From a virus, in IMG/VR virus record IMGVR_UViG_3300025872_000103, positions 1 through 42,759 of that record: a DNA stretch of 42,759 nucleotides; one strand, 5' to 3'. Shown here one piece after another: positions 1 to 42,759 of the stretch. The notes beneath the pieces are model-generated. The model made no database searches and had not been told where the DNA came from. It was given only the letters and a program-made list of their open reading frames with translations. Both the position numbers and the translations under genes were made by a program. Position 1 is the first letter of the stretch; every line of letters begins with the position of its first letter.

Positions 1-1
1 C

Positions 2-3246: not shown

Positions 3247-4311
3247 ATGGCCTACACAGAAGTTTTAACGAGCCACGGCGTGACCGTCTCCCAATGGGAG
3301 GATCGGATTGCCGCAGAATATATCGGGCAGTTGTGGATGAAAAACCTGATGGGGCCGTCCACGGATGCCGTCATTCAGGTCAAGCAGGACTTGGCGAAGA
3401 TGCCAGGGGATGCGATCAACGTCGGGATTCGTTCGCAGTTGAAGGGTGGCTACGTGAGTGGCAACACCTTCGGACTCGGCAACGAAGGACGGGTTGAGTT
3501 CTATAACCAGCGCATCACCATCGACAATATCCGGCATTTGGTCCGGTTTGACGATGTGCCGATGTCGCAGAAGCGTGTTGGCTGGGATTTGCTCAACCAG
3601 GGCCGCGAAGCCTTGGTCGAGAAAGCTCGCATCCGCTTGGATGAGGACATCATTGCCGCCTTGTCCGGCACCTCCACAGGCCGCGTCAGAGGACGGTACC
3701 TGTACGGGGCGCTGGATTCCAATTGGAACAGCACCCACACCACGGCGCTGACCAACGTGGACAACACAGCGGACCAGTTGACCACGAACGTCATTCGCAT
3801 TGCCAAGCGCAAGGCGTTGATTCCGGTGAATGCCGTCTCGCGTATTCGCCCGATGAACGTGAAAGTCGGGATGAATTTTGAGCAGTGGTTTGTCTTTGTG
3901 GCGCATCCCTACGCGGTGCGTGACATGGTGGACAATGACGCGGCCTATCGCAACGCGCAGCTCTTGCTGCCGCCGAACGGCAACCGCGACTCCTCGTTGT
4001 TTACCGGCAATTCGTTCCGTGGATCGTATGACGGCGTACTCATTTACGAGTATGACCGCGTGCAGTTGGTGTCGAGCACCATCCAGTGCGCGCATAACCT
4101 CTTTATGGGGGCGCAGGCGGGGACGGTGGTCTGGGGCCAGATGCCGAAGTTCAACGAACAGGAACAGGATTTGGGCCATACGGTCACGTATGAGGTCCAT
4201 GAAATCCGTAACACCGCCAAGCTGGTCTATGGACGCAACGCCATTGATTCATCGCTCTCCGATGAAGATAACGGCGTAGTCCATGTGTTCACGGCTGCGG
4301 TGGCTGACTAA
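3247..4311 (+). CDS. Major capsid protein, N4-gp56 family
   Basis: This forms the icosahedral shell. The 354-residue product has the features of the N4-gp56 family: an N-terminal segment on a WMKNLMG motif, a section on sample-wide beta strands with VRFDDVPMSQKR (about residues 97-110), a central part with WFVFVAHPYAVRDM (about 219-232) and a C-terminal part with an EQEQDLGHTVTYEVHEIRN segment. Length agrees with the family (about 350-400). It follows the scaffold-like gene by 13 bases with a weak GAAAGG Shine-Dalgarno sequence. The pairing of an N4-gp56 coat with a P22-like portal and tail occurs in environmental podoviruses. Confidence 0.85.
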   Translation: MAYTEVLTSHGVTVSQWEDRIAAEYIGQLWMKNLMGPSTDAVIQVKQDLAKMPGDAINVGIRSQLKGGYVSGNTFGLGNEGRVEFYNQRITIDNIRHLVRFDDVPMSQKRVGWDLLNQGREALVEKARIRLDEDIIAALSGTSTGRVRGRYLYGALDSNWNSTHTTALTNVDNTADQLTTNVIRIAKRKALIPVNAVSRIRPMNVKVGMNFEQWFVFVAHPYAVRDMVDNDAAYRNAQLLLPPNGNRDSSLFTGNSFRGSYDGVLIYEYDRVQLVSSTIQCAHNLFMGAQAGTVVWGQMPKFNEQEQDLGHTVTYEVHEIRNTAKLVYGRNAIDSSLSDEDNGVVHVFTAAVAD

Positions 4312-4322
4312 GGGAGGGACCG

Positions 4323-4589: not shown

Positions 4590-4604
4590 CGGACTGGAAC
4601 GCAC

Positions 4605-4628
4605 GGGGGTCGGGATGGCCTGGCCCCC
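4605..4628 (+). other. GC-rich hairpin after the capsid genes
   Basis: Seven base pairs form between GGGGGTC and GGCCCCC around a 10-base loop. There is no U-tract after it, so it is not a standard Rho-independent terminator. It lies in the only gap of this part of the virion operon, just after the highly expressed capsid genes, and could act as an mRNA-stabilising or processing hairpin. Confidence 0.35.
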
Positions 4629-4660
4629 TGAAACCGTCCATACGATAAGGAGTTCTGACT

Positions 4661-5377
4661 ATGGCTAGCAATTATGTTGAATGGCAGTTTCAGTTGTTTG
4701 ATTTGCGCTTGAACCGCCCGATTAGCGATTCCACTGGCACCTGCCAAGTCCTGACGGCGAGTTCCCCGGCGAAGCTGACGATTTATAGCGATGCCCAAGG
4801 CACCAGCGCCACGAACCCCTTGACGTTCTCTAACGGCCAAGTGCGGTTCTTCACCGATGTGGCGACGACCTCAGCGGATTTGTCGATCATCACCGCGAAC
4901 GGGATTGCCCTGTTCTTGCAGGGGGTGACGACAAGCACGCACCGCATCAACGTCGATCCTGACCGGATCGAACAGATGGGCATTGTCGCCTGGTTTGCCA
5001 CCGCCTCAGGCGTGGTGGCGGGGTCCGGCGTGGCCTTGCCGCAAGCCTCTCGCTTGATTGACGCTTGGTTGCGGGTGACAACCCCTGCTTCTGGCGCCGT
5101 CTTGGATGTGGGGTGCAGCACCACAGTGACCGGCTTCCTTGTGGGGTGCACCGTGGAAGTCACGGGCTACCGTGTGGTGGATGAAGGATCGACAACCCTT
5201 GGCGCACGCGGGACGTTGCTGAACAACGCGGTCACGGCCACGTTGCAGAACATCACGAAGATGTACATTCCCGCCAATGCCACGAGCGGCGTGAATATCG
5301 TGTGGCAGAACACCACGGCGGCGAGTGCCGGCACAGGTTACATCTACCTCCGATACAATCGGATGGTCGGAGCCTAA
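4661..5377 (+). CDS. Putative virion structural protein (238 aa)
   Basis: The product is Thr/Ser/Ala/Gly-rich and beta-rich throughout. Its first 100 residues (LFDLRLNRPISDSTG ... ANGIALFLQG) resemble the cassette of variable and decorating virion proteins seen in podovirus fibres: a short fixed head, then a beta-sandwich-like body. The second half ends in TGYIYLRYNRMVGA. The start has AAGGAG upstream. Placement after the capsid suggests a head or fibre decoration protein. No enzymatic motif is visible. Confidence 0.6.
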   Translation: MASNYVEWQFQLFDLRLNRPISDSTGTCQVLTASSPAKLTIYSDAQGTSATNPLTFSNGQVRFFTDVATTSADLSIITANGIALFLQGVTTSTHRINVDPDRIEQMGIVAWFATASGVVAGSGVALPQASRLIDAWLRVTTPASGAVLDVGCSTTVTGFLVGCTVEVTGYRVVDEGSTTLGARGTLLNNAVTATLQNITKMYIPANATSGVNIVWQNTTAASAGTGYIYLRYNRMVGA

Positions 5378-5379
5378 TC

Positions 5380-7056
5380 ATGACGGATATCACCTGTGGC
5401 GTACGCGATCAGTCGGACTATTACATCCGGCAGGTGCGCGCCAAAATGATATCCGGCGAGTATGCGATGGAGTCTGTGTCCTGCGTGTGCGGGAACACAG
5501 GCTCCGTCCTCGTCACTGAGCAAGACCGATATGGTATCCCCTATAAGCTGCATTGCTGTACGACATGCGGCGTGCTCTACGCCTCTCCGCGCATGACAGC
5601 AGAGGCATTCATCCAGTTCTACGCGCAGGAATACCGCAAGATTTACGACGAACAGACCACGCAAGAGCATGAATTTAAGAGTGCCCACAATGACGGCGGC
5701 TCACTCCTTGAGTTGTTACGCGCCTTCGATGTGACCCCAACCAGCGTGATTGACCTCGGCTGCAATCGTGGCGGGATGCTCCAAGCCTTTGCGGACATTG
5801 GATGCCGCGTGCTGGGCATTGATGCCGATCCTACGTCAGTCGCCTATGGACAAGCGCACGGGCTGAATCTTCGGCATGGCACCTTTGACGATCTCTTGGT
5901 GACAGGTGAGAAGGCCGATGTGGTCATTCTGCATCATGTCTTAGAGCACTGCCTAGATTTGCCCCATATGCTCGATACCGTGCGGCGTCTGATGAACAAA
6001 GATGGCGTGGTGTATATCGGCGTCCCTGGCCTCAAGACGGCCAATCTGACGCGGCTCTGGCAGCAGGCGCATGTCTACCAATTCACCTATGACACGCTGA
6101 CGTATGTCATGGAGCATTGTGGATTTGAAGCCCTCTACTGCGATGAGAACATCACGTCCCTGTGGAAATATACGGGTGCCGTCAGACCGTGGGAAGTGGT
6201 CGATCCACAGGCCGCGTCCGCCAATCTGGATTGGATCTTTGCTGAGAAGCGGAAGATCCCGGAAATCAAAGTCTTTAACAAGTTCCCGCTGAGTGCGCGG
6301 AAGGCCAACATTGACACCATGCTCTCACGCAAATGGCCGGATATGGCCGTGCTGGAAGGCAAGGAAACAGGCCGCGAAGCTATCGTCATTGGTGGCGGTC
6401 CGTCGGTGGATGGGCAGTTAGAAGTCCTCCGCACACTCAAGCAACAGGGCGCGGTGATCGTGGCGATTGAGCGCATGTATCAGTGGTGCGTCTCACATGA
6501 TCTGACCCCTGACTATGTGATCTGCCTCGATGCCAGTGAGGACATTCGGCAATCCTTGGCGCTGCCCGTCAAAGGCGTGACGCATCTGATAGCCACACAA
6601 GTCAACCCGTTCTGTGTCGAACATCTGGACGGCTTGCCGCTGTACATCTTCAACACCCCGCAGGGCGGTTTACCCCTGACGGAATACTGGGACAAACACG
6701 GCTATACCGATTGCCTGGTGTTGAATGCCGGGGGAAGCGTGAGCCTCGCCGCCATGAGTGCCAGCCTCTTTCTCGGCTGCCGCTCCCTGCACATCTTCGG
6801 GTTTGATTGTCACATTTCTGAGGGGTGCTACGCCTCAGGTATTACAGGAGTCGGGGCAGTGGCAGACAGTTATGAAGTGGAGATCGGCGAGCAGGTGTTT
6901 CGGACCACCAACGCCTATTTCAGCTTTGCACAACAGTTCTTTGTGCTGATGGATATAGCGAAACGATTGGGGCATCTCAAGGCAGTGCATCTCTATGGCA
7001 ACAGTCTGGCCTCCGCGTTGGGGCAAGACGCGATCAAAGGATATAACCATGACTAA
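5380..7056 (+). CDS. SAM methyltransferase fused to DUF115/Maf-like glycosyltransferase domain
   Basis: The 558-residue protein has two enzymatic halves. Residues 35-63 carry a Cys pattern (CVC ... CCTTC) as in the N-terminal zinc knuckle of small-molecule and sugar methyltransferases. Residues 120-215 form a class I SAM fold with VIDLGCNRGG (123-132), an acidic end of strand 2 (GIDAD) and VLEHCLDLP. Residues 330-545 match the DUF115 family (MptE-like, also the core of motility-accessory-factor glycosyltransferases): IVIGGGPSVD (335-344), a DYVICLDAS strand, and NAGGSVSLAA followed by LHIFGFD. Maf proteins transfer nonulosonic acids to flagellin Ser/Thr. ATG at 5380 starts the gene just after the preceding stop; starts further upstream would overlap that gene. 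The DUF115 assignment is firm; the substrate is unknown. Confidence 0.75.
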   Translation: MTDITCGVRDQSDYYIRQVRAKMISGEYAMESVSCVCGNTGSVLVTEQDRYGIPYKLHCCTTCGVLYASPRMTAEAFIQFYAQEYRKIYDEQTTQEHEFKSAHNDGGSLLELLRAFDVTPTSVIDLGCNRGGMLQAFADIGCRVLGIDADPTSVAYGQAHGLNLRHGTFDDLLVTGEKADVVILHHVLEHCLDLPHMLDTVRRLMNKDGVVYIGVPGLKTANLTRLWQQAHVYQFTYDTLTYVMEHCGFEALYCDENITSLWKYTGAVRPWEVVDPQAASANLDWIFAEKRKIPEIKVFNKFPLSARKANIDTMLSRKWPDMAVLEGKETGREAIVIGGGPSVDGQLEVLRTLKQQGAVIVAIERMYQWCVSHDLTPDYVICLDASEDIRQSLALPVKGVTHLIATQVNPFCVEHLDGLPLYIFNTPQGGLPLTEYWDKHGYTDCLVLNAGGSVSLAAMSASLFLGCRSLHIFGFDCHISEGCYASGITGVGAVADSYEVEIGEQVFRTTNAYFSFAQQFFVLMDIAKRLGHLKAVHLYGNSLASALGQDAIKGYNHD

Positions 7057-11142: not shown

Positions 11143-12014
11143 TGACCGTCGGCACGACCTATGACTTTACGCTGACACGGGATCAGCTCATTGAGATGGC
11201 GCACAAGCTAATCGGTGTGCTGGCCCCTGGGCAGACGTTGGACGGGGCGCAATCGCAGGACGCGATCAAGCTCCTGAATCTGATTGTGCGGGAAGTCGAT
11301 GAAACGGGCGACCTGAAGTGGACCAGGGCCGCCGCCTCTTCTCTCACGTTGGTAGCCAATACCTTCGTCTATACCACTTCCAACGGCCTCCCCACAGATA
11401 TAGCGAAGATCGACACGGCGACCTACCGCGATGGGCAAGCCATGGATTACCCCATGGCGATTGTCACGGCGATGGAATACGAGGGCATCCAGAACAAGAC
11501 GGATAGCGGCGATCCGAAGAAGGTCTACCTCACCGACCATCGGGATAGCGCCAGCCGGACGCTCTATGTGGCCCCGATGCTCGCCACGGTCAATACACAA
11601 TCGGTAGTGACCGGCACCGATACCGTTGCCTACAAGTGCATCCGCTCGCATACCGCTGATACCACCAACAAGCCGATCACCGGCGCAAATTATTTGCTGT
11701 ACTGGACGGCAGGGGGAGCAGGCCCATCCACATGGACCAGCGGCACCAGTTATACCGCTCCGCAGCAGATTCGCTTGCTGTATCAACGCCCCTTGTTCGA
11801 CTTCGATACCGCATCCGATACGCCGGACTTTCCGCAACAATGGCCGCGTATGCTGGTGTACAAGCTCGCCTTTGACTTGGCCGATCTCTACGGCATTGCG
11901 CTGCCTGAACGGGAATATCTCATTCAGAAGGCCAAGGGAGCCTATACCGATATCTTCGATAAGAGCATGAAGCCCACGACCTCCAACTATCATGGAAAGG
12001 CGTCCTACTTATAA
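11142..12014 (+). CDS. Head-tail adaptor, P22 gp4-like
   Basis: The adaptor ring binds the portal and closes the DNA-filled head. The N-terminal half has the helical adaptor pattern: TRDQLIEMAHKLIGV, then QSQDAIKLLNLIVREVDETGDLKW (about residues 12-60), found in P22 tail accessory factor gp4-type proteins. The C-terminal half has LLYQRPLFDFDTASDTPDFPQQW followed by the helix MLVYKLAFDLADLYG, also typical for the family. The middle (about 140-195) is an inserted beta-rich portion. The next gene overlaps by one base and is the gp10-like hub, the same order as in P22. Confidence 0.75.
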   Translation: MTVGTTYDFTLTRDQLIEMAHKLIGVLAPGQTLDGAQSQDAIKLLNLIVREVDETGDLKWTRAAASSLTLVANTFVYTTSNGLPTDIAKIDTATYRDGQAMDYPMAIVTAMEYEGIQNKTDSGDPKKVYLTDHRDSASRTLYVAPMLATVNTQSVVTGTDTVAYKCIRSHTADTTNKPITGANYLLYWTAGGAGPSTWTSGTSYTAPQQIRLLYQRPLFDFDTASDTPDFPQQWPRMLVYKLAFDLADLYGIALPEREYLIQKAKGAYTDIFDKSMKPTTSNYHGKASYL

Positions 12015-13429
12015 TGGCGTGGCAACCGACACCGCTCTTTGGACAGCCATACGAGTCCGTTGAGGAAATCGAACTCGACCAAACGGCTTCCACGGTCATT
12101 GATGGCTATGTGAACGAGTTTGACCATGTGCCGATGCGCCCTGGCCTCATCTCCTTTAAGGACACAGGGACGAACCTCCCGATTGACGGCCTCTACTGGT
12201 GGGATGAACAGCACTGCGCGTTGGCCGTGTCCAATCGCCGCGTGTGGAAGATCACCGATAGCGCCGGCACCATGACAGAGATTACTGGTTCGTCCGCCTT
12301 GCTCCCCAGTTCGCCTGTCACCTTTGCAACGGACGGCACCAAGTGCGCGATGGCGAACGGGGCCAATATCGTCCATACAGACCTCTCGACCTTGACCACA
12401 ATGGCCGATGTGGATGCGCCGACGGCAGTGACGCATGTGGCCTATCTGGATGGGTACTTGCTCGCCAATAGTACAGGAACCGCTCGATTTAACTTTAGCT
12501 CACCCACCGATATGACGGCGTGGAACGCCTTAGACTTTGCCTCAGCCGATGGCGAACCTGACCGTGTGGTAGCGATGAAAACCGGATTCAGGGAAGTCAT
12601 TCTGCTTGGCCGAACGTCGGTGGAGTTCTGGATTAACGACGGCGTAACGCCGTTTACACGCCTCGACGGATCGGTGCAATCGTTTGGCTGCTCAGCTCCC
12701 TACAGCTTGGCGAAAGTCGGCAATACCTGGATGTGGCTGGACCATGAACGCCGGTTAGTGACCATGCAAGGCCGCGCTGTGCAAGCCGTCTCGACTCCCT
12801 ATGATCGGGTCATTCAGCACTATGCCTCTGTTGATGATGCGATTGGCTACGTGGTGAGCATCGAAGGCTATCCGCTCTATGTGCTGAACTTCCCCACGGC
12901 TGGTCAGTCATTGGTCTACAACTACAAAACTGAGAAGTGGAGTAAGTGGGGATACTGGAATACCGTCTCAGGCAGCTACGGAAGGTTCAGGGGGAACGCC
13001 TACTGCTACGCCCGTGACTGGAACATGCACCTCGTCGGCGATTGGGCCAACGGTTTGATCTACAAATTTGACAGGACCGCCTTTACTGATAACGGGAACC
13101 CCATTCGCACGCTGGTCCGCACGGGCCATATCAACTACGGCATGGATGTCACCAAGCGCAGTAATCAGCTTCGCGTGAAGATGAAGCGCGGGGCAGGCAA
13201 CGGAACGGTGAGTGATCCACAAGTGACCATGCGGAGGCGGGTGAACAATGCCGCGCAATGGGAAACGGAACGCTGGGCCTCGCTAGGGCAAGTCGGACAG
13301 CATGAGCAATTAGTCAACTGGCGTAGGAACGGCATCTACAAAACTGTGCAGTATGAATTTGTTCACAGTGATGATTCCGATTTCATCCTCATCTCCGCGC
13401 AAGAGGATGTGGAGGCGTTAGGACGATAA
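12014..13429 (+). CDS. Tail hub / packaged DNA stabilisation protein, P22 gp10-like
   Basis: The 471-residue product is a beta-propeller-like protein: repeated units with Trp-rich turns (YWWDEQHCALAVSNRRVWKI, GNTWMWLDHERRL, WSKWGYWNTVSG) and the N-terminal LIDGYVNEFDHVPMRPGL-type opening seen in gp10 family hubs. This protein seals the neck and holds the tailspike or fibre. The start ATG overlaps the adaptor stop (TAATGG), and the stop overlaps the next start. Catalytic motifs are absent. The assignment follows fold pattern and order. Confidence 0.7.
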   Translation: MAWQPTPLFGQPYESVEEIELDQTASTVIDGYVNEFDHVPMRPGLISFKDTGTNLPIDGLYWWDEQHCALAVSNRRVWKITDSAGTMTEITGSSALLPSSPVTFATDGTKCAMANGANIVHTDLSTLTTMADVDAPTAVTHVAYLDGYLLANSTGTARFNFSSPTDMTAWNALDFASADGEPDRVVAMKTGFREVILLGRTSVEFWINDGVTPFTRLDGSVQSFGCSAPYSLAKVGNTWMWLDHERRLVTMQGRAVQAVSTPYDRVIQHYASVDDAIGYVVSIEGYPLYVLNFPTAGQSLVYNYKTEKWSKWGYWNTVSGSYGRFRGNAYCYARDWNMHLVGDWANGLIYKFDRTAFTDNGNPIRTLVRTGHINYGMDVTKRSNQLRVKMKRGAGNGTVSDPQVTMRRRVNNAAQWETERWASLGQVGQHEQLVNWRRNGIYKTVQYEFVHSDDSDFILISAQEDVEALGR

Positions 13430-28492: not shown

Positions 28493-29026
28493 ATGCCTAA
28501 GAAGCTAAAGCCGGTAAGAATAGATGGAGACCTTGCATATATAACGCTGTCTAAAGGTTATGAGGCCGTCATTGATTTGGCCGATCTTCCTCTAGTCGGA
28601 ATGTCTAATTGGTGTGCATTAGTTGGTCCCAATACCGTGTATGCAGTGCGTGCACTATACGATAGGCGCGATGGCAGGCTGGTAAGTAAAACGATGACTC
28701 GTTTGCATAGCGTCATTCTGAATGCACCAAAAGGAATCAACGTGGATCACATCAATGGGAATGGCCTAGATAATAGGCGGTCCAATCTTCGATTGGCTAC
28801 AGTTCAGCAAAACGGATGCAACAGAGCGATGAGTAGGAACAATACGTCTGGGTATAAAGGCGTGACTCTATGTACTGGCAAGTGGAGTACAGGTAAGTGG
28901 AAATCTGAGATTAAGGTGAACATGAAAGGGATTTACCTTGGGGTTTTCCGCACTAAAGAAGAAGCCCATAAAGCTTACCAAGCTGCAAGTGTGAAGTATC
29001 ACGGCGAATTTGGCAGGTCACGATGA
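28493..29026 (+). CDS. HNH homing endonuclease with AP2 DNA-binding domain
   Basis: The 177-residue protein has an N-terminal strand-rich region, an HNH nuclease core with His72 (RLHS) and the DHINGNGLDNRRSNLR block at about 85-100, and a C-terminal AP2-type domain (about 119-175: GYKGV, KWKSEIKVN, GIYLGVFRTKEEAHKAYQ). This is the composition of mobile HNH endonucleases of phages. The coding sequence is AT-richer than its neighbours and breaks the run of small early genes, which fits insertion. No intron is evident around it, so it would be a free-standing homing gene. Confidence 0.8.
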   Translation: MPKKLKPVRIDGDLAYITLSKGYEAVIDLADLPLVGMSNWCALVGPNTVYAVRALYDRRDGRLVSKTMTRLHSVILNAPKGINVDHINGNGLDNRRSNLRLATVQQNGCNRAMSRNNTSGYKGVTLCTGKWSTGKWKSEIKVNMKGIYLGVFRTKEEAHKAYQAASVKYHGEFGRSR

Positions 29027-33612: not shown

Positions 33613-34368
33613 ATGCAGGTTAAGAACTGGGCTGAGTTCCAGCATTTCAAAGACCGCAACCCTATCTGGATTAAACTCTATCGCAAGTTACTCGACGACA
33701 AGCAGTGGTACGACCTCGATCCTGTCTCTTCCAAGCTCCTCATTATGCTGTGGCTACTCGCCTCAGAGAACCACGGCGCGCTTCCCTCCATTCCTGATAT
33801 CGCCTTTCGTTTACGACTGCCAGAAAAGCAAGTCTTTTCAAGTGTTTCAAAGCTATCACATTGGCTGATACAGGATGATATCAAGCCGATATCAACTTGT
33901 CATCAAGTTGTCATCTCAGAGACAGAGACAGAGACAGAGACAGAGACAGAGACAGAGACAGAAGAGAGACAGAGAAAGAATCCCGTCGAGGTTCTTTCAG
34001 AACGCTCTCCGGCACCCTCTGGTGTCTTTGTGTGGAATGCCTACCGAGAAGCCTACAGAAGTCGGTATGGGGTTGATCCTGTCCGCAATCAAAAAACCAA
34101 TTCCTTATGTTGCCAACTAGTCAAACATCTTGGCGTAGATGATGCGCCAGCAGTCGCCTCGTTTTATCTCACCCATAACGGCCAGTGGTACGTAAATAAA
34201 ATGCACCCAGTCAATCTGCTTGTGGCCGATGCTGAAAAGCTGAGGACTGAATGGGCTACAGGGAAGCAAGTCACCGCCACACAAGCCCGACAAGCTGACG
34301 GCAAAGCCGCCCGCGGGCAAGTGTGGCAAACCCTTATCGACGAAGCAGCACGAAAGGAGCGTGTATGA
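33613..34368 (+). CDS. Replication initiation-like protein (phage replisome organiser)
   Basis: The 251-residue product begins with a winged-helix-like N-terminal domain: WIKLYRKLLDDKQWYDL, SKLLIMLWLLASENHG, then PSIPDIAFRLRLPEKQV (about residues 17-80), a pattern common to replisome-organiser N-domains of phages and to DnaD/DnaA-like initiators. A low-complexity (ET)n linker at about 102-117 separates it from a C-terminal domain (about 135-250) rich in helix. The gene follows a terminator and has a weak GAGGCC upstream. It would recruit host helicase to an origin; the role is inferred. Confidence 0.55.
   Translation: MQVKNWAEFQHFKDRNPIWIKLYRKLLDDKQWYDLDPVSSKLLIMLWLLASENHGALPSIPDIAFRLRLPEKQVFSSVSKLSHWLIQDDIKPISTCHQVVISETETETETETETETEERQRKNPVEVLSERSPAPSGVFVWNAYREAYRSRYGVDPVRNQKTNSLCCQLVKHLGVDDAPAVASFYLTHNGQWYVNKMHPVNLLVADAEKLRTEWATGKQVTATQARQADGKAARGQVWQTLIDEAARKERV
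33917..33962 (+). repeat. CAGAGA hexamer tandem repeat
   Basis: Nearly eight copies of the hexamer CAGAGA stand in a row without mismatch, encoding a run of Glu-Thr dipeptides in the linker of the replication-like protein. Because the unit is six bases, copy-number change would alter linker length without a frameshift. DNA with little mismatch suggests recent slippage. Confidence 0.85.
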
Positions 34369-35773: not shown

Positions 35774-36190
35774 ATGGCGACACAGACTGTTGAACGCCGG
35801 ATTGATCCCGTCAAGGCCCTGGAATATCGCCTCAAAGGCATTACCTATACCGACATCGGTACCCTCCTCTGTCCAGACCAGCCTTTCTCCGCACAAGCCG
35901 TCCAGAACTGCTTAATCCGCTTTGAATCGTTCCTGAAAGATGCGGACTTATTGCCTTCGTTTCAGACCAATCGAGCCAGCCTGATTGATACCATCGAATA
36001 CAAGTTGCTGGAATCACTCACAGATGAGGAAGCCATCGAAAAGATGAGTTACCGGGATCGAGCCGTTTCATACGGCATTATCGTCGATAAACGCCGGTTG
36101 GAAAAAGGGCAAAGTACTAGCAATATCAGTGTGTTAGGGAAGATCGTGCAACAGGCAGACGCCGAGCTATTCAAGAAGGATAAGACGTAA
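35774..36190 (+). CDS. Putative small terminase subunit
   Basis: A small terminase recognises packaging sites on the phage DNA. The 138-residue product starts with a helix-turn-helix-like region (ALEYRLKGITYTDIGTLLC ... SAQAVQNCLIRF, about 15-55) and continues with helices KLLESLTDEEAIEKM and YRDRAVSYGIIVDKRRLEKG (about 85-115), a composition often seen in TerS proteins. The large terminase lies 4.5 kb downstream, separated by the sugar cassette. The start has no Shine-Dalgarno. The assignment rests on DNA-binding fold and context. Confidence 0.5.
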   Translation: MATQTVERRIDPVKALEYRLKGITYTDIGTLLCPDQPFSAQAVQNCLIRFESFLKDADLLPSFQTNRASLIDTIEYKLLESLTDEEAIEKMSYRDRAVSYGIIVDKRRLEKGQSTSNISVLGKIVQQADAELFKKDKT

Positions 36191-36467: not shown

Positions 36468-37295
36468 ATGACCTCAGTCTACATCATCGCTGAAATCGGG
36501 ATCAACCATAACGGCTCTCTGGACACGGCGAGAAATCTGATTGATGCAGCAGCGGCATGTGGGGCCGATGCGGTGAAGTTCCAGAAGCGCACGGTGGAGG
36601 CGGTGTATAGCGCCGAGGAGTTGGCGAAGCCGAGGGAGTCGGTGTTTGGGTCAACGAATGGGGATCTGAAGCGGGGCCTGGAGTTTTCCTTCGATCAGTA
36701 CAGTGAGATTGATACGTATTGCAAATCTGTCGGCATTGCGTGGAGCGGGTCGGCGTGGGATGTGGCGAGCGTGCATTTCCTGGCGGCGTTTGGGGTGCCC
36801 TGGCTGAAGGTGCCGTCGGCGTTGGTGACGGATCATGAGGTGTTGACGGCCTATAAACGCACCGGCATTCCTATTTGGATGTCTACGGGGATGAGTACAT
36901 GGGACGAGATTGATGCGGCGGTGCAGCTCTGTTCGCCTGGCGTGCTGTTTCATTGCCATTCTAGTTACCCGTCTCCGCTCGATGAATTGAACCTGGCCTG
37001 TATTCGATCCTTTCAAGACCGTTATCCCGGCGTCAGTATCGGTTATTCCTCGCATAGCGTGTCGCCCTGGCCTTGCCTGATGGCGGTGTGCTATGGCTCG
37101 GAAGTGGTGGAGGCCCATCTGACGTTGGATCGGTCTATGTGGGGCAGCGATCAAGCCTCCTCGTTAGAACCTGCCGCGTTTAAGAAATTGGTGGAAGAGA
37201 TTCGCACCTTTGAACTGGCGAAGGGAGACGGCATCAAGCGGGTGTGGCCGAGCGAAGAGGCGGCGAAAGCGAAGTTGCGGAAGGTGAGCATATGA
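36468..37295 (+). CDS. neuB: NeuB/SpsE-type nonulosonic acid synthase, no SAF domain
   Basis: NeuB-type enzymes condense phosphoenolpyruvate with a hexosamine such as N-acetylmannosamine. The product holds the TIM-barrel hallmarks: IAEIGINHNG (7-16), VKFQK (36-40), MSTGMSTWDEID (138-149), LFHCHSSYP (160-168) and GYSSHS (192-197). His162 and His196 match the metal-binding His pair of the family, with GYSSHS in place of the common GYSDHT. EAHLTLDRS (215-223) replaces the usual EKHFTLDR. The protein ends at 275 residues, where homologues (about 340-350) continue into an SAF/antifreeze-like domain that reaches the partner subunit's active site. Start after AAGGAGTTCT; ATGA overlap follows. Confidence 0.8.
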   Translation: MTSVYIIAEIGINHNGSLDTARNLIDAAAACGADAVKFQKRTVEAVYSAEELAKPRESVFGSTNGDLKRGLEFSFDQYSEIDTYCKSVGIAWSGSAWDVASVHFLAAFGVPWLKVPSALVTDHEVLTAYKRTGIPIWMSTGMSTWDEIDAAVQLCSPGVLFHCHSSYPSPLDELNLACIRSFQDRYPGVSIGYSSHSVSPWPCLMAVCYGSEVVEAHLTLDRSMWGSDQASSLEPAAFKKLVEEIRTFELAKGDGIKRVWPSEEAAKAKLRKVSI

Positions 37296-37501
37296 GATCG
37301 AGCGAGAATGATAGCCCCACGGTATCCGTCAAAACATGGAGCGATATCATCAATACGGTCCATCAGGAGATTCAAATTAAAGACGAGATCACGAAGACGA
37401 TCATTGAGGTGGCGCGACGGCAAGAAGAGGAGCAGATTCGTCAGGCATTGATGAGACTTGGATGGACCCCTCCGCAAGAGACCTCGAAGGTGACGGCGTG
37501 A
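37292..37501 (+). CDS. Hypothetical coiled-coil protein (69 aa)
   Basis: ATG 37292 overlaps the NeuB stop and follows GGAAGGTGAGC. After a polar head the product is a helix with VHQEIQIKDEITKTIIEVARRQEEEQIRQALMRLG, a coiled coil. The next gene overlaps it by four bases. It may be an accessory or a partner of the enzymes around it. Confidence 0.5.
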   Translation: MRSSENDSPTVSVKTWSDIINTVHQEIQIKDEITKTIIEVARRQEEEQIRQALMRLGWTPPQETSKVTA

Positions 37502-37614
37502 ATCTCTTGTACTGGACCGGACAGTTAGTGCTCGGCCTGTTGCTCCTGGTGGCGTTTGTGGCGCTGCTGCTGGTAGGCCTCAGTTCGCCCTGGTCACAGA
37601 GACGGAAGCGATGA
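37498..37614 (+). CDS. Single-pass membrane protein (38 aa)
   Basis: The GTG start overlaps the previous stop and has GAAGGTGAC upstream. The product MNLLYWTGQLVLGLLLLVA ... LLLVGLSSPWSQRRKR is a single membrane segment with a basic tail, so the N-terminus is probably outside and the tail inside. It overlaps the next gene by four bases and could anchor the sugar enzymes to the membrane. It is too short for common gene finders. Confidence 0.5.
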   Translation: MNLLYWTGQLVLGLLLLVAFVALLLVGLSSPWSQRRKR

Positions 37615-38510
37615 GAACTGTCTATCTCAACGGCCAATTTGTGCCGGAGTCTGAGGCCAAGCTGTCGATCTACGACCTCTCCGTCATGCAGGCGGCGGCA
37701 GCCTTCGAGATGACCCGCAGTTTTAACGGCGTCACGTTCAAACTACGTGAACACCTCATCCGCTTGATTCGCTCCTGCCAACTGCTCGATATTCCATCGT
37801 CTGCCTGGAACTATGTGGAAGACTTAGAGCGATTGTGCCATGAGGTCGCCGCACGTAACGATCACGGCCCAGGCGAAGAACACCGGCTGCTAATCGTCGT
37901 CTCGCCTGGCTGTGCGCCGATGTACAAGGATCTGGCCGGCGTCATTCCGCACCCCTTTCTCTACATTGCCGATTTCCCCCTGCGCTATACCGTCAAAGGA
38001 TTCTCTCGCTACTTTACCGACGGCGTGAAGTGTGTCACGTCGAACATTCAGCAAGTGCCGGACGCCTGTATCCCGTCAAGCGCCAAGCATCGAAGCCGGT
38101 TGCATTTCCACCTGGCACAGATGCAAGCGCCGGCAGGGACCTGGCCGCTGATGGTGGACGATATTGGACGATATACCGAAGCCCCAGGAGCGAATATTGT
38201 TCAAGTCCATGGAGGCAAGGTCTGGCTCTACGATCAGACATGCCGACCCGTTCTACCTGGAATTTCGATGCAGACAGTTCAAGAACTTACTCAGGCTCAA
38301 CCTATAGAAGATTGGGCCACAGTGCATGATGCTGACGAACTCTTTTTAACGGGAACTCCTTTCTGCGCTATTCCTGTGGTCTCCATCGACGGAAAGCCGA
38401 TAGGCGACGGCAAGCCAGGTCCCGTGTTCAAGCAGACGTTAGCGAAGTGGTCAGAGATGGTGGGAATCAACATCGAGAAACAGATAGCCCTATGGGACTC
38501 GCAGGTTTAA
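37611..38510 (+). CDS. Class IV PLP aminotransferase (branched-chain / D-amino-acid type)
   Basis: The product has the class IV fold pattern: YLNGQFVPESEAKLSIYDLSV (5-25), a Lys159 in SSAKHRSRLHFHL as the Schiff-base Lys, and Glu190 in TEAPGANIVQV (189-199). FLTGTPFCAIPVVSIDGKPIGDGKPGP near the C-terminus is the family's phosphate-binding and end segment. Length (299) fits. In bacteria these enzymes serve BCAA, D-Ala or ADCL chemistry. Here the gene lies between NeuB-type and radical SAM genes, so the substrate may be a keto-sugar or an amino acid for N-acylation; inference. ATGA-type overlaps on both sides show a tight operon. Confidence 0.75.
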   Translation: MRTVYLNGQFVPESEAKLSIYDLSVMQAAAAFEMTRSFNGVTFKLREHLIRLIRSCQLLDIPSSAWNYVEDLERLCHEVAARNDHGPGEEHRLLIVVSPGCAPMYKDLAGVIPHPFLYIADFPLRYTVKGFSRYFTDGVKCVTSNIQQVPDACIPSSAKHRSRLHFHLAQMQAPAGTWPLMVDDIGRYTEAPGANIVQVHGGKVWLYDQTCRPVLPGISMQTVQELTQAQPIEDWATVHDADELFLTGTPFCAIPVVSIDGKPIGDGKPGPVFKQTLAKWSEMVGINIEKQIALWDSQV

Positions 38511-39274
38511 GCCAGCTCAATGTGGAACTCACAAGCCGCTGTCATCGGCGCGTTCTTTGCTCGTTCTGTTTTCACCAGGCGAGTCCTGACCTGAAAATGG
38601 GTGATATGCACATGAATCTGGTCCGGGACATTCGGCAGCAAGTCCCCAGTGGGATTGTGGTGCAGTTTCACCGTGACGGCGACCCCTTAGCCTATCCACA
38701 AATCCGTGAGGCGCTAGAAGTCTTCGACGGATGTATCCGTTCGATTGTGACCCACGGCGAAACGCTCATGGAGCAAGCCGAAGATCTGATCGAACGGTGT
38801 GAAACCATCACGGTCTCCGTCTTCTCGCCGGACCCTGACGCCGACATGCAATTCCAAGCCGTCAGAGAATTTCTCGCTGAGAAGGGCGATGCCCTGCCGC
38901 GTGTGCTGGTCAAAGTGGTGGGGGACTGCAACGTCTCACGCTATGAGGCATTAGGGGTGCCGATTCTGCGTCGCCGCCTTCATACCGCGACGAATGGGAA
39001 ATATGTCAAGACCGTTCCCATGATGCCGGAACATGGCGTCTGCACCGATTTCCTCTCTCACCCTGCGATCAGTTGGGATGGCAAAGTCTATCAGTGCGTG
39101 CGGTTCGATGACACCGACGCGGGGTATTTAGGGAGCTTGTATGAACACACCTTGGATGAGATATGGAACGGCGAGACGCGCCGGAACTGGCTGGACGCGC
39201 ATGTGCAGGGGCGGCGGGATCTGGCGTCTCCCCGCTGTGCCACATGTACCTATTACGGCATCCCCACGCACTAG
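38492..39274 (+). CDS. Radical SAM/SPASM-type protein, CX5CX2C cluster
   Basis: ATG 38492 overlaps the preceding gene by 19 bases. The N-terminal LNVELTSRCHRRVLCSFCFH has Cys17, Cys23 and Cys26, giving CX5CX2C instead of the usual CX3CX2C of the SAM-bound [4Fe-4S] cluster. A GDPLAYPQI segment follows at about residue 60. The C-terminus has a SPASM-like region: CTDFLSHPAISWDGKVYQCV, YLGSLYEHTLDEIWNG and CATC. SPASM proteins bind extra Fe-S clusters and include RiPP maturases and sugar-modifying enzymes. Radical SAM proteins of this type are common in surface-polysaccharide clusters. Substrate is not visible. Confidence 0.7.
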   Translation: MGLAGLSQLNVELTSRCHRRVLCSFCFHQASPDLKMGDMHMNLVRDIRQQVPSGIVVQFHRDGDPLAYPQIREALEVFDGCIRSIVTHGETLMEQAEDLIERCETITVSVFSPDPDADMQFQAVREFLAEKGDALPRVLVKVVGDCNVSRYEALGVPILRRRLHTATNGKYVKTVPMMPEHGVCTDFLSHPAISWDGKVYQCVRFDDTDAGYLGSLYEHTLDEIWNGETRRNWLDAHVQGRRDLASPRCATCTYYGIPTH

Positions 39275-39283
39275 GAGGAAACT

Positions 39284-39640
39284 ATGGCGATCTTCAATCT
39301 GATGAATGTCAAAACAGGCTTGTTAATCCGCACCATCAGCGGTGATTCGTTTTCACGCGCCGTCGAAACGGAAGCACGGGCCGGACGTAGTTTGGCGAAT
39401 GCCGATCTGACGGGACTCGGACAGAACGGCGATCCCACAGAGTTGAATCTGTCCGGCGGCACCTTCACGAACGCCAAAATGGACGGCGTGAACCTCACGG
39501 GGTCGCTGCTGCACGGCGCGGATATCTCCGGGGCCTCGCTGAAAAATGCGATCCTCCGTAACGTGAAAGCGCGGGGTATCACCACCACGAACAGCACACA
39601 GACGGGGATCGACAAGCGCGGCTCAGATGGGGATTTGTAG
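39284..39640 (+). CDS. Pentapeptide-repeat-like protein
   Basis: The gene starts after CTAGGAGGAAACT. About residues 36-95 show A(D/N)LxG/x-type pentapeptides: LANADLTGLG, LNLSGGTFTNAKMDGVNLTGSLLHGADISGASLKNA, as in the right-handed quadrilateral beta-helix family. The N-terminal 35 residues form a different region (IFNLMNVKTGLLIRTI). Family members have varied roles, including binding of DNA gyrase, so function cannot be read from the fold. It sits between the radical SAM and cytidylyltransferase genes. Confidence 0.65.
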   Translation: MAIFNLMNVKTGLLIRTISGDSFSRAVETEARAGRSLANADLTGLGQNGDPTELNLSGGTFTNAKMDGVNLTGSLLHGADISGASLKNAILRNVKARGITTTNSTQTGIDKRGSDGDL

Positions 39641-39641
39641 G

Positions 39642-40322
39642 ATGCGGGTTGTCGCCATTCTGCAAGCGCGGATGGGAAGTACCCGTTTACCTGGGAAGGT
39701 CATGCTGCCGCTGGCTGGTAAGCCGATGGTGCAGAACATTGTCGAACGGGTGGAGAGGGCGAAGAGTCTAGATGATGTTGTGGTAAGTTCACCATCGACA
39801 ATATCCGACGAGGCAATAGAATCTCTCTGTTGCAAATTAGATATTCCTTGGCATCGGTACAATGGCGACCCTTGCGATTTGGTAGGGCGCTATCTGGCCT
39901 GTGCGACTCTGGCGCAAGCCGATCTCATCGTCCGCATCCCTTGCGACAATCCCTGCATTGATCCTGACTATATTGATGCGGCCATAGAAACGTACAAGCG
40001 CGATCCGTTCGTCTACTATTCCAATACCACCGCCGGGTGTTCTGGAAAGATGATCGACGGGATAGGGGCGGAAGTCTTATCTATGAGCCGATTGAAATGG
40101 CTGGACGAACGCACACAAGGGAATGCATTCTGGCGCGAACATCCGCACCAGTTATTTGAATTCTGCAACATTTTGCAACTCCCTCCTGCCGATTATCGCC
40201 TCGATGTCAACACGCAGGCCGACTATGAGTTTATCAAGGGCATTTACGACCACTTCGGACATAACGAGTTCACCACGCAGCAAGTCGTTACGCACCTCAC
40301 TACACAAGGAGTTATGGCATGA
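39642..40322 (+). CDS. SpsF/KdsB/NeuA-like cytidylyltransferase
   Basis: The product has the family opening AILQARMGSTRLPGKVMLPLAGKPM (5-29) with the nucleotide-binding Arg/Lys and the inner PCDNPCIDPDYID block (about 106-118, DNP in place of DGP/DAP) and a CMP-type acceptor region; the C-terminus has DYRLDVNTQADYEFIKGIY. SpsF-type enzymes are associated with spore-coat and nonulosonic-acid polysaccharides and are often next to an SpsE/NeuB-type gene. It would activate the synthesised sugar as a CMP derivative. Start at ATG 39642 after the GGGGAT stretch; the four-base overlap with the next gene shows coupling. Confidence 0.75.
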   Translation: MRVVAILQARMGSTRLPGKVMLPLAGKPMVQNIVERVERAKSLDDVVVSSPSTISDEAIESLCCKLDIPWHRYNGDPCDLVGRYLACATLAQADLIVRIPCDNPCIDPDYIDAAIETYKRDPFVYYSNTTAGCSGKMIDGIGAEVLSMSRLKWLDERTQGNAFWREHPHQLFEFCNILQLPPADYRLDVNTQADYEFIKGIYDHFGHNEFTTQQVVTHLTTQGVMA

Positions 40323-40489
40323 AATCCGATGAACGCGCAGAAACACAAGTCGAAACGAACGGCAGCACGAACGTCAACGATCCGCACCTCTCCACCAGTG
40401 ACGGCATGCACATCACCATGCCGGGCGCGGGGATTGAGCACTACGGCACCATCGCTGTCCATGATGGCGTGGGCAAAACGGAGAAATAG
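40319..40489 (+). CDS. Small hypothetical protein (56 aa)
   Basis: ATG 40319 overlaps the preceding stop. The product is polar and charged (KSDERAETQVETNGSTN) and then HLSTSDGMHITMPGAGIEHYGTIAVHDG, with several His. It lies immediately downstream of the cytidylyltransferase with AGGAG before it, and may be a coat or packaging accessory. No family recognised. Confidence 0.45.
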   Translation: MKSDERAETQVETNGSTNVNDPHLSTSDGMHITMPGAGIEHYGTIAVHDGVGKTEK

Positions 40490-40684: not shown

Positions 40685-42217
40685 ATGGCGGCCTCGGCCT
40701 CGCAACAAGCCTCCAATAAAATCCGCGCATGGACGCTCGATCCGCTGTTGTTTGTCAAGGAAGTGTTTGACCTGGACGGGACGCCAGGGAAACGCATCAG
40801 CGAACAGCAGCGGGAAGGGCTAGAAGCCTATCGGCGTTTGCTTACGGCCAAGCTCAAGCTGGCGCGTGGCGTTCCCATGACGCAGGAAGAGAAGGCCGAC
40901 GCCAAGAAGATCGGCCTCTGTATCCATAGCGGCCACGGGACGGGGAAGACCAGCACGGCCTCATGGATCATTTTGCATTTCATGGTCTGCCGTCCCTTTT
41001 GTAAGATCCCCTGTATTGCCCCAGTCGGCACGCAGTTGAAGACGAACCTATGGCCGGAAGTGCATCTCTGGCTGAGACGGTCGAGTTTTCTGCAAGACCT
41101 CATCAAGTGGCAAGCGGAAAAGATCTACTGGAAAGAGGAAGCGGGACGCGAATGGTTTGCCATTCCCCGCACCGTGAACGTCAAAGCCTCACCGGAAGAA
41201 CAAGCCGAAACGCTCGCCGGTATTCACGCCGATAATCTGTTGGTGGTGGTCGATGAAAGCTCCGGTGTGCCTGATCCTGTCTTTCGTCCGCTGGAAGGCT
41301 CGCTCACTGGCCCGTGTAACTTGGTCCTACAAATCGGAAACCCCACGCAGTCGCATGGATTCTTTTATGAGTCCTTCACGAAGAATCGTGCTGATTGGAT
41401 GGTGTGCCATTGGAACGCGGAAGAAAGCGAACTGGTAGACCGCACCCATATTGAACGCATGGAGCGCAAATATGGGAAGGACAGCAACGCCTACCGGATT
41501 CGCGTGCTTGGTTTGCCGCCTACTGCTACGCCTGACACCTTAATCCCACTGGATTGGATCATGGCAGCCGTGAATAGGCCATTGATTGAATCAGTGGACG
41601 TTCCGACCGTGTGCGGCATTGATGTTGGGCGATTCGGTGACGATAAATCCGTCATTATGACCCGACAGGGGAATCTCATTGGGAAATGGGACGACAAACA
41701 CGAAATTCTCTTAGAGCAAATGACGGAAGTGACCAAGTGCGATTCTCATGAAGTGGCAGGAGTGGCGTTAGAGCATATTCAAGAGCATGGCTGCATTGCG
41801 GCGGCGGTGGATGTGATCGGGATTGGTTCTGGCGTATTCGATACATTGAATCGGCTCAATCCGTGTCATATTTTAGCCGTCAATGTGGCTGAATCAGCCG
41901 ATGAACCGGATCGGTTTGCACGAAAACGGGATGAAATCTGGTGGACGTTGCGTGATCGGTTCCAACGGGGCACAATTTCTATTCCGCACAATGACACGCT
42001 GATCGGTGAGTTGAGCATCATTAAATATAATTTCCAACGGGCTTCCAAGGAACGAATAAAAATTGAAAGCAAGCAAGAATTGCGAGATAGAGGCATCGCC
42101 TCTCCGAACTATGCCGATGCACTAGGGCTGAGCGAATATGCGGCGAACTATGTCGGGAGACGATTACAACGCGCCAGCACAATTCATCGAAAACCGCTAT
42201 CCGCGTGGGTGGGATAA
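40685..42217 (+). CDS. terL: Large terminase subunit
   Basis: TerL drives DNA into the procapsid with ATP and cuts the concatemer. The 510-residue product has a Walker A at 81-90 (HSGHGTGKTS), a Walker B with LLVVVDE (185-191) and a C-terminal nuclease domain opening with GIDVGRFGDDKS (about 311-322) that supplies a metal-binding Asp, and AAVDVIGIGSGV as a second acidic strand. Length fits TerL proteins. The order TerS-like, cassette, TerL, portal is unusual because metabolic genes separate the two terminase subunits. The end overlaps the antisense endonuclease gene by 21 bases. Confidence 0.9.
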   Translation: MAASASQQASNKIRAWTLDPLLFVKEVFDLDGTPGKRISEQQREGLEAYRRLLTAKLKLARGVPMTQEEKADAKKIGLCIHSGHGTGKTSTASWIILHFMVCRPFCKIPCIAPVGTQLKTNLWPEVHLWLRRSSFLQDLIKWQAEKIYWKEEAGREWFAIPRTVNVKASPEEQAETLAGIHADNLLVVVDESSGVPDPVFRPLEGSLTGPCNLVLQIGNPTQSHGFFYESFTKNRADWMVCHWNAEESELVDRTHIERMERKYGKDSNAYRIRVLGLPPTATPDTLIPLDWIMAAVNRPLIESVDVPTVCGIDVGRFGDDKSVIMTRQGNLIGKWDDKHEILLEQMTEVTKCDSHEVAGVALEHIQEHGCIAAAVDVIGIGSGVFDTLNRLNPCHILAVNVAESADEPDRFARKRDEIWWTLRDRFQRGTISIPHNDTLIGELSIIKYNFQRASKERIKIESKQELRDRGIASPNYADALGLSEYAANYVGRRLQRASTIHRKPLSAWVG

Positions 42218-42664
42218 GTAATTTATGGCTTGCATCAAAAGGGTAATATGATCCTTGAAGTATCCAATCCCAAGATTGCACCGATGGCATAGCAGGCCGC
42301 GTATTTTATTGGAATGATGGTCATGGTCAACGGAGAGAGAGTGACGAGTTGGGGGAGTATGGCAAATGGCACAGGCTCCTCCCTGCATTTTCAGCAAGGC
42401 ATCATATTCCTCTGCACTTATTCCAAACTTTCGCGTTCTATGCTTTTGAACTTCTCCCGTCAGACAGTTTTTACATCGTTCAATGCCTGGCTTGTGCGGT
42501 TCTTTCCCGCATCGGGAGCACAAACCAGCCTGAAGTCTCTTCTCTCTTCGACGATTCGTACAATTTCTATGTTGGGCAAGACATTTCAGGCATTGCGTGC
42601 TCCCAGGTTTGACAGGTCTTCCGCATCGCCTACGTTTGCATACGATCTGTTCTTGAATCGACAT
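42197..42664 (-). CDS. Endonuclease VII-like HNH protein
   Basis: The product has an N-terminal zinc-finger-like region with CKRRRCG, QCLKCL and LCSRCGKEP (nine Cys in about 65 residues) and the C-terminal recombination endonuclease VII (HNH) core: CAIC (98-101), SVDHDHHS with Asp113/His114/Asp115/His116 (111-118) and LLCHRCNLGIGYFKD (about 124-138). T4 endonuclease VII resolves branched DNA; free-standing HNH genes are also mobile homing genes. It lies on the minus strand between TerL and the portal, an orientation that differs from its neighbours and fits insertion. GGGGGG lies upstream of its start. Confidence 0.8.
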   Translation of the reverse strand: MSIQEQIVCKRRRCGRPVKPGSTQCLKCLAQHRNCTNRRREKRLQAGLCSRCGKEPHKPGIERCKNCLTGEVQKHRTRKFGISAEEYDALLKMQGGACAICHTPPTRHSLSVDHDHHSNKIRGLLCHRCNLGIGYFKDHITLLMQAINYLSHPRG

Positions 42665-42726
42665 ATAGCGCCCCCCAGCAATTTATACGATTGTATTACA
42701 AAACGCAGCAATATGGAAGATTAAAC

Positions 42727-42759
42727 ATGGATCAGCCCGTCATGGTGAGCCGCGATCTC
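42727..42759 (+). CDS. Start of the portal gene (partial, end of window)
   Basis: The ATG at 42727 follows TATGGAAGATTAAAC and reads MDQPVMVSRDL to the window end without a stop. The position right after the large terminase and the antisense endonuclease is where the portal gene begins in such phages, and the rest of the portal is at the other end of the window. Joining the ends gives a frame mismatch, so the genome is not closed exactly here. Confidence 0.5.
   Translation, partial: MDQPVMVSRDL

Follow-up and report, generated by a model that had tools for sequence, protein, structure and literature searches.

A phage gene block proposed to make a CMP-activated ulosonic acid for attachment to the virion

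Main finding

The viral record IMGVR_UViG_3300025872_000103 of IMG/VR, analysed here over its whole length of 42,759 bases (hereafter the window), has a P22-like portal and coat protein, a terminase, an Erf-like protein and an integrase. At positions 36468-40322, between a TerS-like gene and the gene for the terminase large subunit (TerL), it carries a block encoding a NeuB-type synthase, a class IV aminotransferase (AT4), a radical S-adenosylmethionine (SAM)/SPASM protein (rSAM) and an SpsF-type cytidylyltransferase. The reading that we favour, with moderate confidence, is that this block is a phage production line for a 3-deoxy-2-ulosonic acid activated with cytidine monophosphate (CMP), and that a DUF115 fusion protein encoded among the head genes is the transferase that would place the sugar on a virion protein. 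The ulosonic acid product would probably be amino-bearing. Direct support comes from the families of the enzymes, their conserved active-site residues, purifying selection, co-occurrence across contigs and the modelled fold of the DUF115 domain.

A first-pass annotation, made from the letters of the window, had named the four enzyme families, and Pfam confirmed all of them; for rSAM the SPASM domain scored above its cut-off (1.1e-10) and Radical_SAM itself under it (0.0027). The annotation had also placed the block between the terminase subunits. This holds for TerL, which is recognised by PHROG; the TerS-like open reading frame (ORF) is named by its position only and has no family match in Pfam, PHROG or NCBIfam. 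Taken as a whole, the interpretation in that annotation is partly supported.

The synthase and the cytidylyltransferase

The synthase matches the NeuB barrel domain (PF03102) with 221 bits over the entire profile (1-241 of 241), and its PDB relatives are 6ncs, 1xuu and 1vli. In the alignment, H196 and H217 stand opposite histidines of meningococcal NeuB, the metal-binding histidines of which are His215 and His236; the two phage residues are invariant across the 7 phages compared. Pfam detected no SAF (antifreeze-like) domain in the synthase, nor was there a match to it anywhere in the window, in a search with positive controls in 8 of 14 cases. The synthase also lies far under the NCBIfam equivalog cut-offs for N-acetylneuraminate synthase (231.3 against 399.65 bits) and pseudaminate synthase (168.9 against 340.25 bits). 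The nine-carbon product that had been suggested earlier is not supported as written, because of these low scores, the missing SAF domain and the presence of AT4 and rSAM, which to our knowledge take part in none of the known sialic, legionaminic and pseudaminic acid pathways. The product would be a sialic-acid-like 3-deoxy-2-ulosonic acid, whatever its carbon number.

The cytidylyltransferase matches CTP_transf_3, which we take to be the Pfam family of the enzyme named SpsF, with 84.1 bits against a cut-off of 22.6. Its best PDB relative is 6oew, and it could be aligned across 7 phages. Profile searches, on which the first-pass annotation had staked its reading of these two enzymes, thus placed both in the named families and not in unrelated ones. 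The window record gave no match to Epimerase (PF01370), Epimerase_2 (PF02350) or DegT (PF01041), in searches with positive controls in 14, 11 and 14 of 14 genomes, respectively. These families represent the dehydratase or epimerase, the hydrolysing epimerase and the aminotransferase of the known sialic, legionaminic and pseudaminic acid pathways, which the host could provide. The precursor must therefore be supplied by the host, as had been anticipated.

The aminotransferase and the radical SAM protein

AT4 matches Aminotran_4 with 93.9 against 28.5 bits. Its Lys159, invariant in 13 aligned sequences, faces a lysine of 5cm0, as expected of the lysine that binds pyridoxal phosphate. In rSAM, cysteines 16, 22 and 25, together with 183, 201, 248 and 251 (numbered from base 38495), are invariant in 12 aligned sequences. 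The first motif (window 38540-38569) reads CX5CX2C in all 7 aligned proteins of the window clade and in L195 (loci are given as L numbers), two residues more than the canonical CX3CX2C spacing, which is seen in L024, L037, L118, L215, L216 and L194. These two sets of proteins offer a natural test of motif spacing.

By profile, the best solved relative of rSAM is BtrN (6.4e-14, in two stretches). According to PMC9012708, BtrN carries out the two-electron oxidation of an aminocyclitol hydroxyl to a ketone and holds an auxiliary cluster on four cysteines. The last three of the four invariant C-terminal cysteines of rSAM align with BtrN cysteines, as expected of a protein with such a cluster. In each of the 28 contigs with virion genes in view, and in the bacterial locus L118, AT4 is the core gene immediately upstream of rSAM. 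From this adjacency in virion-linked blocks, and from the likeness to BtrN, we propose oxidation followed by transamination, by which rSAM and AT4 may, by analogy, install the amino group of an amino-ulosonic acid.

The DUF115 fusion and the candidate acceptors

The proposed transferase joins a methyltransferase to a DUF115 (MptE-like) domain, the latter matched in Pfam at 1.5e-20 (74.1 against 34.6 bits). The start at ATG 5380, given earlier for a DUF115/Maf-like fusion, was confirmed; it lies two bases after the end of a gene that we call deco. Searched against the PDB as a profile, the domain matches the Maf protein 5mu5 at 1.2e-10 (a single match, profile 38-186) and an MptE-type kinase at 1e-4. 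In NCBIfam, the protein has a far sub-threshold match to the flagellin modification protein PseD. An AlphaFold model was built from five sequences, with a mean predicted local distance difference test (pLDDT) score of 73.7 and a predicted template modelling score of 0.79. Maf ranks first in Foldseek with this model (1.1e-8), and in VIA-align 5mu5 reaches Z 16.6 over 202 residues with a root-mean-square deviation of 3.5, while the sialyltransferases CstII and ST8SiaIII reach Z 8-10. The modelled fold is thus Maf/sialyltransferase-like, and a function as sugar transferase is proposed. Such a fold and a co-occurring CMP-sugar pathway would form a coherent pair, a shared fold being no proof of activity.

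Rows for TAL effectors topped the profile search with the DUF115 protein and were set aside; the alignment was inspected for 3ugm alone, whose score is the sum of 20 weak repeat matches (best i-Evalue 2.4). A separate DUF115-bearing family of ~770 amino acids, 23-31% like the window protein, occurs in other virus contigs (L156-L168), and NeuB was found in 0 of 6 such contigs examined.

The deco protein has no Pfam or PHROG family and only weak matches in BFVD. Its AlphaFold model is a beta structure of low confidence (mean pLDDT 62.3). Serine and threonine make up 21% of its residues, several other proteins of the virion region being equally rich, and its gene adjoins DUF115 in relatives as well.

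The block in related phages

The NeuB of the window, used as a query, picked out 37 viral loci. In seven of them (L002-L008, of which L002 and L003 are near-identical and L006 starts inside NeuB) the genes for NeuB, AT4, rSAM and SpsF lie in that order directly upstream of TerL, and in 6 of the 7 a relative of the TerS-like gene precedes the block, as in the window. Further placements were found with alignment scans for TerL, coat, rSAM and AT4. In a second arrangement the block, ordered NeuB, SpsF, AT4, rSAM, stands between TerL and portal (L231, L233, L237, L239, L242, L244, L247, L248 and L294); L298 is of the same type and its contig stops before the portal. A third placement is directly behind DUF115: L215 has DUF115, NeuB, AT4, rSAM and SpsF, all five in a row, and L149, L150 and L151 have NeuB and SpsF at this site. 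In contig G023 the genes run cytidylyltransferase, NeuB, AT4, rSAM, TerL, the first being PseF-type and not SpsF-type; across loci, the cytidylyltransferase slot is filled by one type or the other. The enzyme set, found in many uncultured phages, therefore persists while its order, its place and one enzyme family vary. Conservation in related phages, on which the earlier annotation had made its reading depend, is thus found both in L002-L008 and in the other placements.

In a tree of AT4, the window-type rows between TerS and TerL form one branch and the rows between TerL and portal another (support 100/100 and 93/87). G023 (L260), whose block also has TerS and TerL on its two sides but which was labelled apart in this tree, falls with L215 and L251; the branch of L249 is very long. 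Since G023 groups away from the window-type rows, the block reached the position between TerS and TerL more than once.

The four enzymes are under purifying selection. The ratio of nonsynonymous to synonymous substitution rates (dN/dS) between the window and L002, from our own Nei-Gojobori script and at dS of 0.9-1.6, was 0.144 for NeuB, 0.163 for AT4, 0.066 for rSAM and 0.119 for SpsF, with 0.131 for TerL.

Strength of association

Association was counted for genes within 6 kb, with overlapping sets of rSAM and AT4 loci and with near-identical contigs kept. All four enzymes occurred together in 22 of 47 rSAM loci and 26 of 59 AT4 loci. Around AT4 (n=59), NeuB was present in 50 loci, a cytidylyltransferase in 55 and either of them in 58. 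After clustering at 95%, NeuB or a cytidylyltransferase was found in 42/42 AT4 clusters, and the single missing locus, L236, is a 4-kb fragment. With one or the other near 58 of the 59 loci, this AT4 subfamily is a dedicated partner of NeuB and the cytidylyltransferase, as sampled with a query that was built from members already beside NeuB and so favours that subfamily. The 47 rSAM loci had AT4 in 27 cases, NeuB in 32 and a cytidylyltransferase in 31.

The DUF115 gene follows deco in each of the 15 viral contigs where the site can be read and one or more block genes are present (13 after merging of two near-identical pairs): the window and IMG/VR 3300045051_000281, 3300044712_000830, 3300005445_000004, 3300027900_000212, 3300045996_000198, 3300005573_000662, 3300009503_000193, 3300009285_001973, 3300009537_000040, 3300036766_000358, 3300002460_000655, 3300025030_001443, 3300045936_000037 and 3300018079_000267. 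This count was taken by locus and then grouped per contig by hand, flanks that ended early being rescued by another locus of the same contig. The attachment step, which the first-pass annotation could only propose, is better supported by this co-occurrence and by the Maf/sialyltransferase-like fold. In G056, a block gene and DUF115 are both present and widely separated. Seven contigs have a readable site and no block gene in view. L203, a record of 23.8 kb, has a readable site with neither DUF115 nor NeuB, its terminase side lying beyond the contig; G054 (41.5 kb) shows neither block nor DUF115, and here the stretch after the coat gene lies beyond the contig.

Proposed pathway and alternative readings

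In the pathway that we propose, the SAF-less synthase would condense phosphoenolpyruvate with a sugar aldehyde supplied by the host. One hydroxyl of the product would be oxidised to a ketone by rSAM, in the manner of BtrN, and AT4 would transaminate that ketone. SpsF would then activate the sugar with cytidine triphosphate at the anomeric carbon, and the DUF115 domain would transfer it from CMP to serine or threonine of a virion protein encoded by the neighbouring head genes, the fused methyltransferase capping or methylating the transferred sugar. We infer the substrates, the order of rSAM before AT4 and the acceptor, as well as the benefit, which could be surface masking or altered adsorption. 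A wider proposal is put forward tentatively: phages may carry a complete, mobile and so far unrecognised class of pathway, in which a SAF-less synthase, a BtrN-like dehydrogenase, a class IV transaminase and a CMP-sugar synthetase yield a new amino-ulosonic acid, an undescribed sugar, that is put on the capsid by a Maf-like methyl/glycosyltransferase, bacteria using the same chemistry for surface glycans.

Several observations weigh against the proposed pathway. The similarity of rSAM to BtrN is remote; its sole NCBIfam match at cut-off is to the generic SPASM family (27.9 against 27 bits), all specific rSAM families of NCBIfam being sub-threshold for the window protein. AT4 stands beside rSAM in only 4 of 8 contigs with no virion genes in view. 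Among the rSAM loci, 12 of 47 are without NeuB and cytidylyltransferase, and 26 of the 59 AT4 loci are without rSAM within 6 kb, some in each set being cut by contig ends. Six contigs are DUF115-positive and block-less in view, and none of them extends as far as the terminase region. Nor do all members of the coat family have the block: NeuB was found in only 2 of 12 coat-related contigs examined, mostly fragments, and L173, L206, L207 and L212 have TerL without the block beside it. The DUF115 gene of L007 lacks the methyltransferase part, and the DUF115 model also matches SteA (Z 12.5) and a pterin pyrophosphokinase, discussed below. Finally, gene position is the sole basis on which deco is placed as the most likely acceptor and the coat protein next. 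L212, with no block between TerS and TerL, shows by eye the apparent start of a DUF115 gene (12294-12616), and L173 has TerS and TerL with no block.

It is quite possible that rSAM and AT4 act before NeuB, making its amino-aldehyde, or that AT4 supplies some other group, with the same end use of the sugar. The variable gene order is compatible with this, as is the likeness of AT4 to amino-acid aminotransferases working on 2-keto acids. The adjacency of AT4 and rSAM fits consecutive steps but is silent on their place before or after NeuB, which in our proposal is inferred.

An account that we consider unlikely is that the pathway alters the surface polysaccharide of the host during infection or lysogeny, with receptor masking or superinfection exclusion as the outcome, and leaves the virion unmodified. 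The cellular counterparts of the block lend it some weight. In L118, from a metagenome-assembled genome of Omnitrophota, the genes for NeuB, a PseF-type cytidylyltransferase, AT4 and rSAM stand one after another, surrounded by glycan-type genes, a flippase-like gene among them (by eye); it is the sole locus with all four genes in view among 80 bacterial NeuB loci, among the matches listed. L095, from Azonexaceae, has NeuB, SpsF and AT4, also in glycan-type surroundings. In larger virus contigs, many of them, AT4, NeuB and PseF-type genes form part of long glycan loci, and the integrase of the window makes a temperate life possible. The recurrent neighbours in 30 loci (28 viral, 2 bacterial), each family named from one representative, were SDR (20 loci), NAD-dependent epimerase/dehydratase-type (16), TIM-barrel isomerase-like (12), cupin (11) and DegT (10) proteins. 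In bacterial searches, rSAM was found in one genome among the 35 searched in the phylum of L118 (that of L118 itself), in 0 of 369 genomes drawn from the class of L095 in a search without a known positive, in 2 of 5 genomes of a further bacterial search (L118 itself and one weak match), and on no plasmid. A role at the host surface fits poorly, however, with a block that adjoins terminase or head genes and with a block-linked transferase that is Maf-like and encoded among the head genes beside deco. Nor was a membrane glycosyltransferase or flippase seen in the 29 window ORFs, part of the total, that were scanned with Pfam.

A function of the DUF115 protein as a nucleotide or pterin pyrophosphokinase, with the sugar used on DNA or as a soluble anti-defence molecule, is very improbable. 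The Pfam name MptE-like and the match of the model to the pyrophosphokinase fold of MptE/HPPK (8sd5, Z 13.8) speak for it, but Maf is the better match, true sialyltransferases match as well, and DUF115 co-occurs with a CMP-sugar pathway in all 15 contigs. Another recurrent neighbour family, in 9 of the 30 loci above and near AT4 in glycan loci, points the same way: the one member tested matches both MptE-like and the CST-I sialyltransferase family, each under its cut-off. Least credible of all is a passing cargo set (moron) with no phage role, as could be read from enzyme families known from cells and from the HNH-type genes seen by eye beside the block in several relatives, since the enzymes are under purifying selection and the block is kept in divergent phages together with DUF115.

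Gene layout and other features of the window

The features of the block and the virion genes discussed above are listed in Table 1. The conserved core consists of the four enzymes; the small ORFs and the pentapeptide-repeat gene are outside it. They had been counted earlier among the parts of the block, and we set them aside as parts of the mechanism: tblastn picked up none of them in 5 of the 7 block loci, short ORFs being hard to detect in this way. The 69-aa ORF had no tblastn match in L002-L038 and no Pfam match above cut-off.

Table 1. Positions of the block genes and of the proposed transferase and acceptors in the window
Feature	Position	Strand	Remarks
Major coat protein, alternative acceptor	3247..4311	+	Phage_capsid_3 1.1e-18, phrog_334 4e-43
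deco, beta-rich protein, proposed glycan acceptor	4661..5377	+	Between coat and DUF115 genes
Methyltransferase-DUF115/MptE-like fusion, proposed sugar transferase	5380..7056	+	Start ATG 5380; Methyltransf_23 2.4e-17
TerS-like gene	35774..36190	+	Borders block; named by position; relatives in L002, L003, L004, L005, L007, L008
NeuB/SpsE-type PEP (phosphoenolpyruvate)-condensing synthase, 275 aa (amino acids), SAF-less	36468..37295	+	Core; Pfam NeuB 1.7e-65
69-aa ORF, translationally coupled, not conserved	37292..37501	+	Accessory; 4-base overlap
38-aa ORF, one hydrophobic stretch	37498..37614	+	Accessory; 4-base overlap; match in L002/L003 only
AT4, class IV aminotransferase	37611..38510	+	Core; Aminotran_4 1.8e-26
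rSAM, radical SAM/SPASM-twitch, CX5CX2C motif, BtrN-like	38492..39274	+	Core; SPASM 1.1e-10
Pentapeptide-repeat protein, 118 aa	39284..39640	+	Accessory; Pentapeptide 1.7e-9; match in L002/L003
SpsF-type cytidylyltransferase	39642..40322	+	Core; CTP_transf_3 1.6e-23; in-frame ATG 39627 also possible
56-aa ORF, coupled to SpsF	40319..40489	+	4-base overlap; similar ORF in L002 at 11998-12168
TerL, terminase large subunit	40685..42217	+	Borders block; phrog_2 terminase 1.8e-32

The junctions read from the sequence agree with the overlaps of 4-19 bases reported for the block before. Overlaps of 4 bases join NeuB to the 69-aa ORF (ATG 37292), this to the 38-aa ORF (GTG 37498), the latter to AT4 (ATG 37611), and SpsF to the 56-aa ORF (40319). 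AT4 and rSAM overlap by 19 bases (rSAM ATG 38492). Between rSAM and the pentapeptide-repeat gene there is a gap of 9 bases with a Shine-Dalgarno-like AGGAGG, and the latter gene and SpsF either overlap by 14 bases (start ATG 39627) or are separated by 1 (start ATG 39642).

Two phage groups distant from each other have pentapeptide-repeat genes within the block, one encoding the 118 aa of the window and a different one 281 aa in G023 (L194, reverse complement 4321-5166); these are possibly unrelated insertions. HNH or endonuclease VII-type genes were seen by eye in and around the block in L002 (7337-7984), L005 (6455-7081), L008 (8771-9397 and 11068-11514) and L195 (2545-3012 and 7712-8428), and by Pfam elsewhere in the window (28493-29026 and 42197-42664). 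Such genes may help to explain the shuffled gene order.

The portal frame is truncated at the window start and codes for 563 aa, where L139 has an open frame of ~700 codons (window 1-1705 and 42217-42759), so that the record is apparently an almost complete genome, cut open within the portal gene. A replication-type protein (33613-34368) has a low-complexity ETETET tract in its middle.

Comparison with known systems

At E 0.1, PHROGs gave no family for the NeuB, AT4, rSAM or SpsF of the window. A tblastn search (E 1e-5) of 50,697 GenBank phage records produced no match to rSAM, AT4 or DUF115 and three to NeuB, at 28-43% identity. We found no description of a phage-borne pathway of this kind in the open-access (PMC) literature. 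Two apparent precedents were rejected: in the accessible text of a B. megaterium phage paper the sole mention is a KDNase reference, and a paper on BREX, from what its accessible text shows, was matched as a DUF115-phage link through DUF1156.

Flagellin glycosylation systems of the Maf type use a NeuB-type synthase. Those that work with CMP-pseudaminic or CMP-legionaminic acid, e.g. in Aeromonas caviae, have in common with the phage proposal a CMP-sugar and a transferase of the Maf fold. The phage set differs in adding AT4 and rSAM, in its SAF-less synthase and in the lack of Epimerase, Epimerase_2 and DegT matches in the window, and its transferase, part of a methyltransferase fusion, is encoded next to head genes. 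In the flagellin systems, transfer to protein is cytoplasmic and depends on Maf, according to PMC4065374.

The SpsE and SpsF genes for the spore-coat polysaccharide of Bacillus belong to the same synthase and cytidylyltransferase families as those of the block, but the SpsE chain 1vli has 385 residues against 275 in the phage synthase, and we know of no pair of class IV aminotransferase and rSAM among the sps genes. BtrN, the butirosin dehydrogenase, is the closest solved relative of rSAM and a remote one, with three of four auxiliary cysteines aligned; its cluster motif is C16/C20/C23 (PMC9012708), against CX5CX2C in the window clade. The Omnitrophota locus L118, a cellular counterpart that speaks for the proposed pathway, has the four enzymes in a row as the phages do, but is cellular, has the PseF-type cytidylyltransferase and shows no DUF115 match.

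If the proposed pathway is correct, small phages would own a surface sugar, and adsorption, clearance or neutralisation would likely be changed. It would also point to an undescribed amino-ulosonic acid whose synthesis relies on radical SAM chemistry instead of the customary route through a nucleotide-sugar dehydratase. Mycobacteriophages provide the nearest parallel for the target: their capsids and tail tubes are glycosylated, and phage-encoded glycosyltransferases modify virion proteins, with no NeuB/SpsF-type pathway mentioned in the accessible text of that report (PMC12363180). Phage virion glycosylation and Maf-dependent flagellin glycosylation are thus already known; what is new here is the combination, the enzyme set and the setting.

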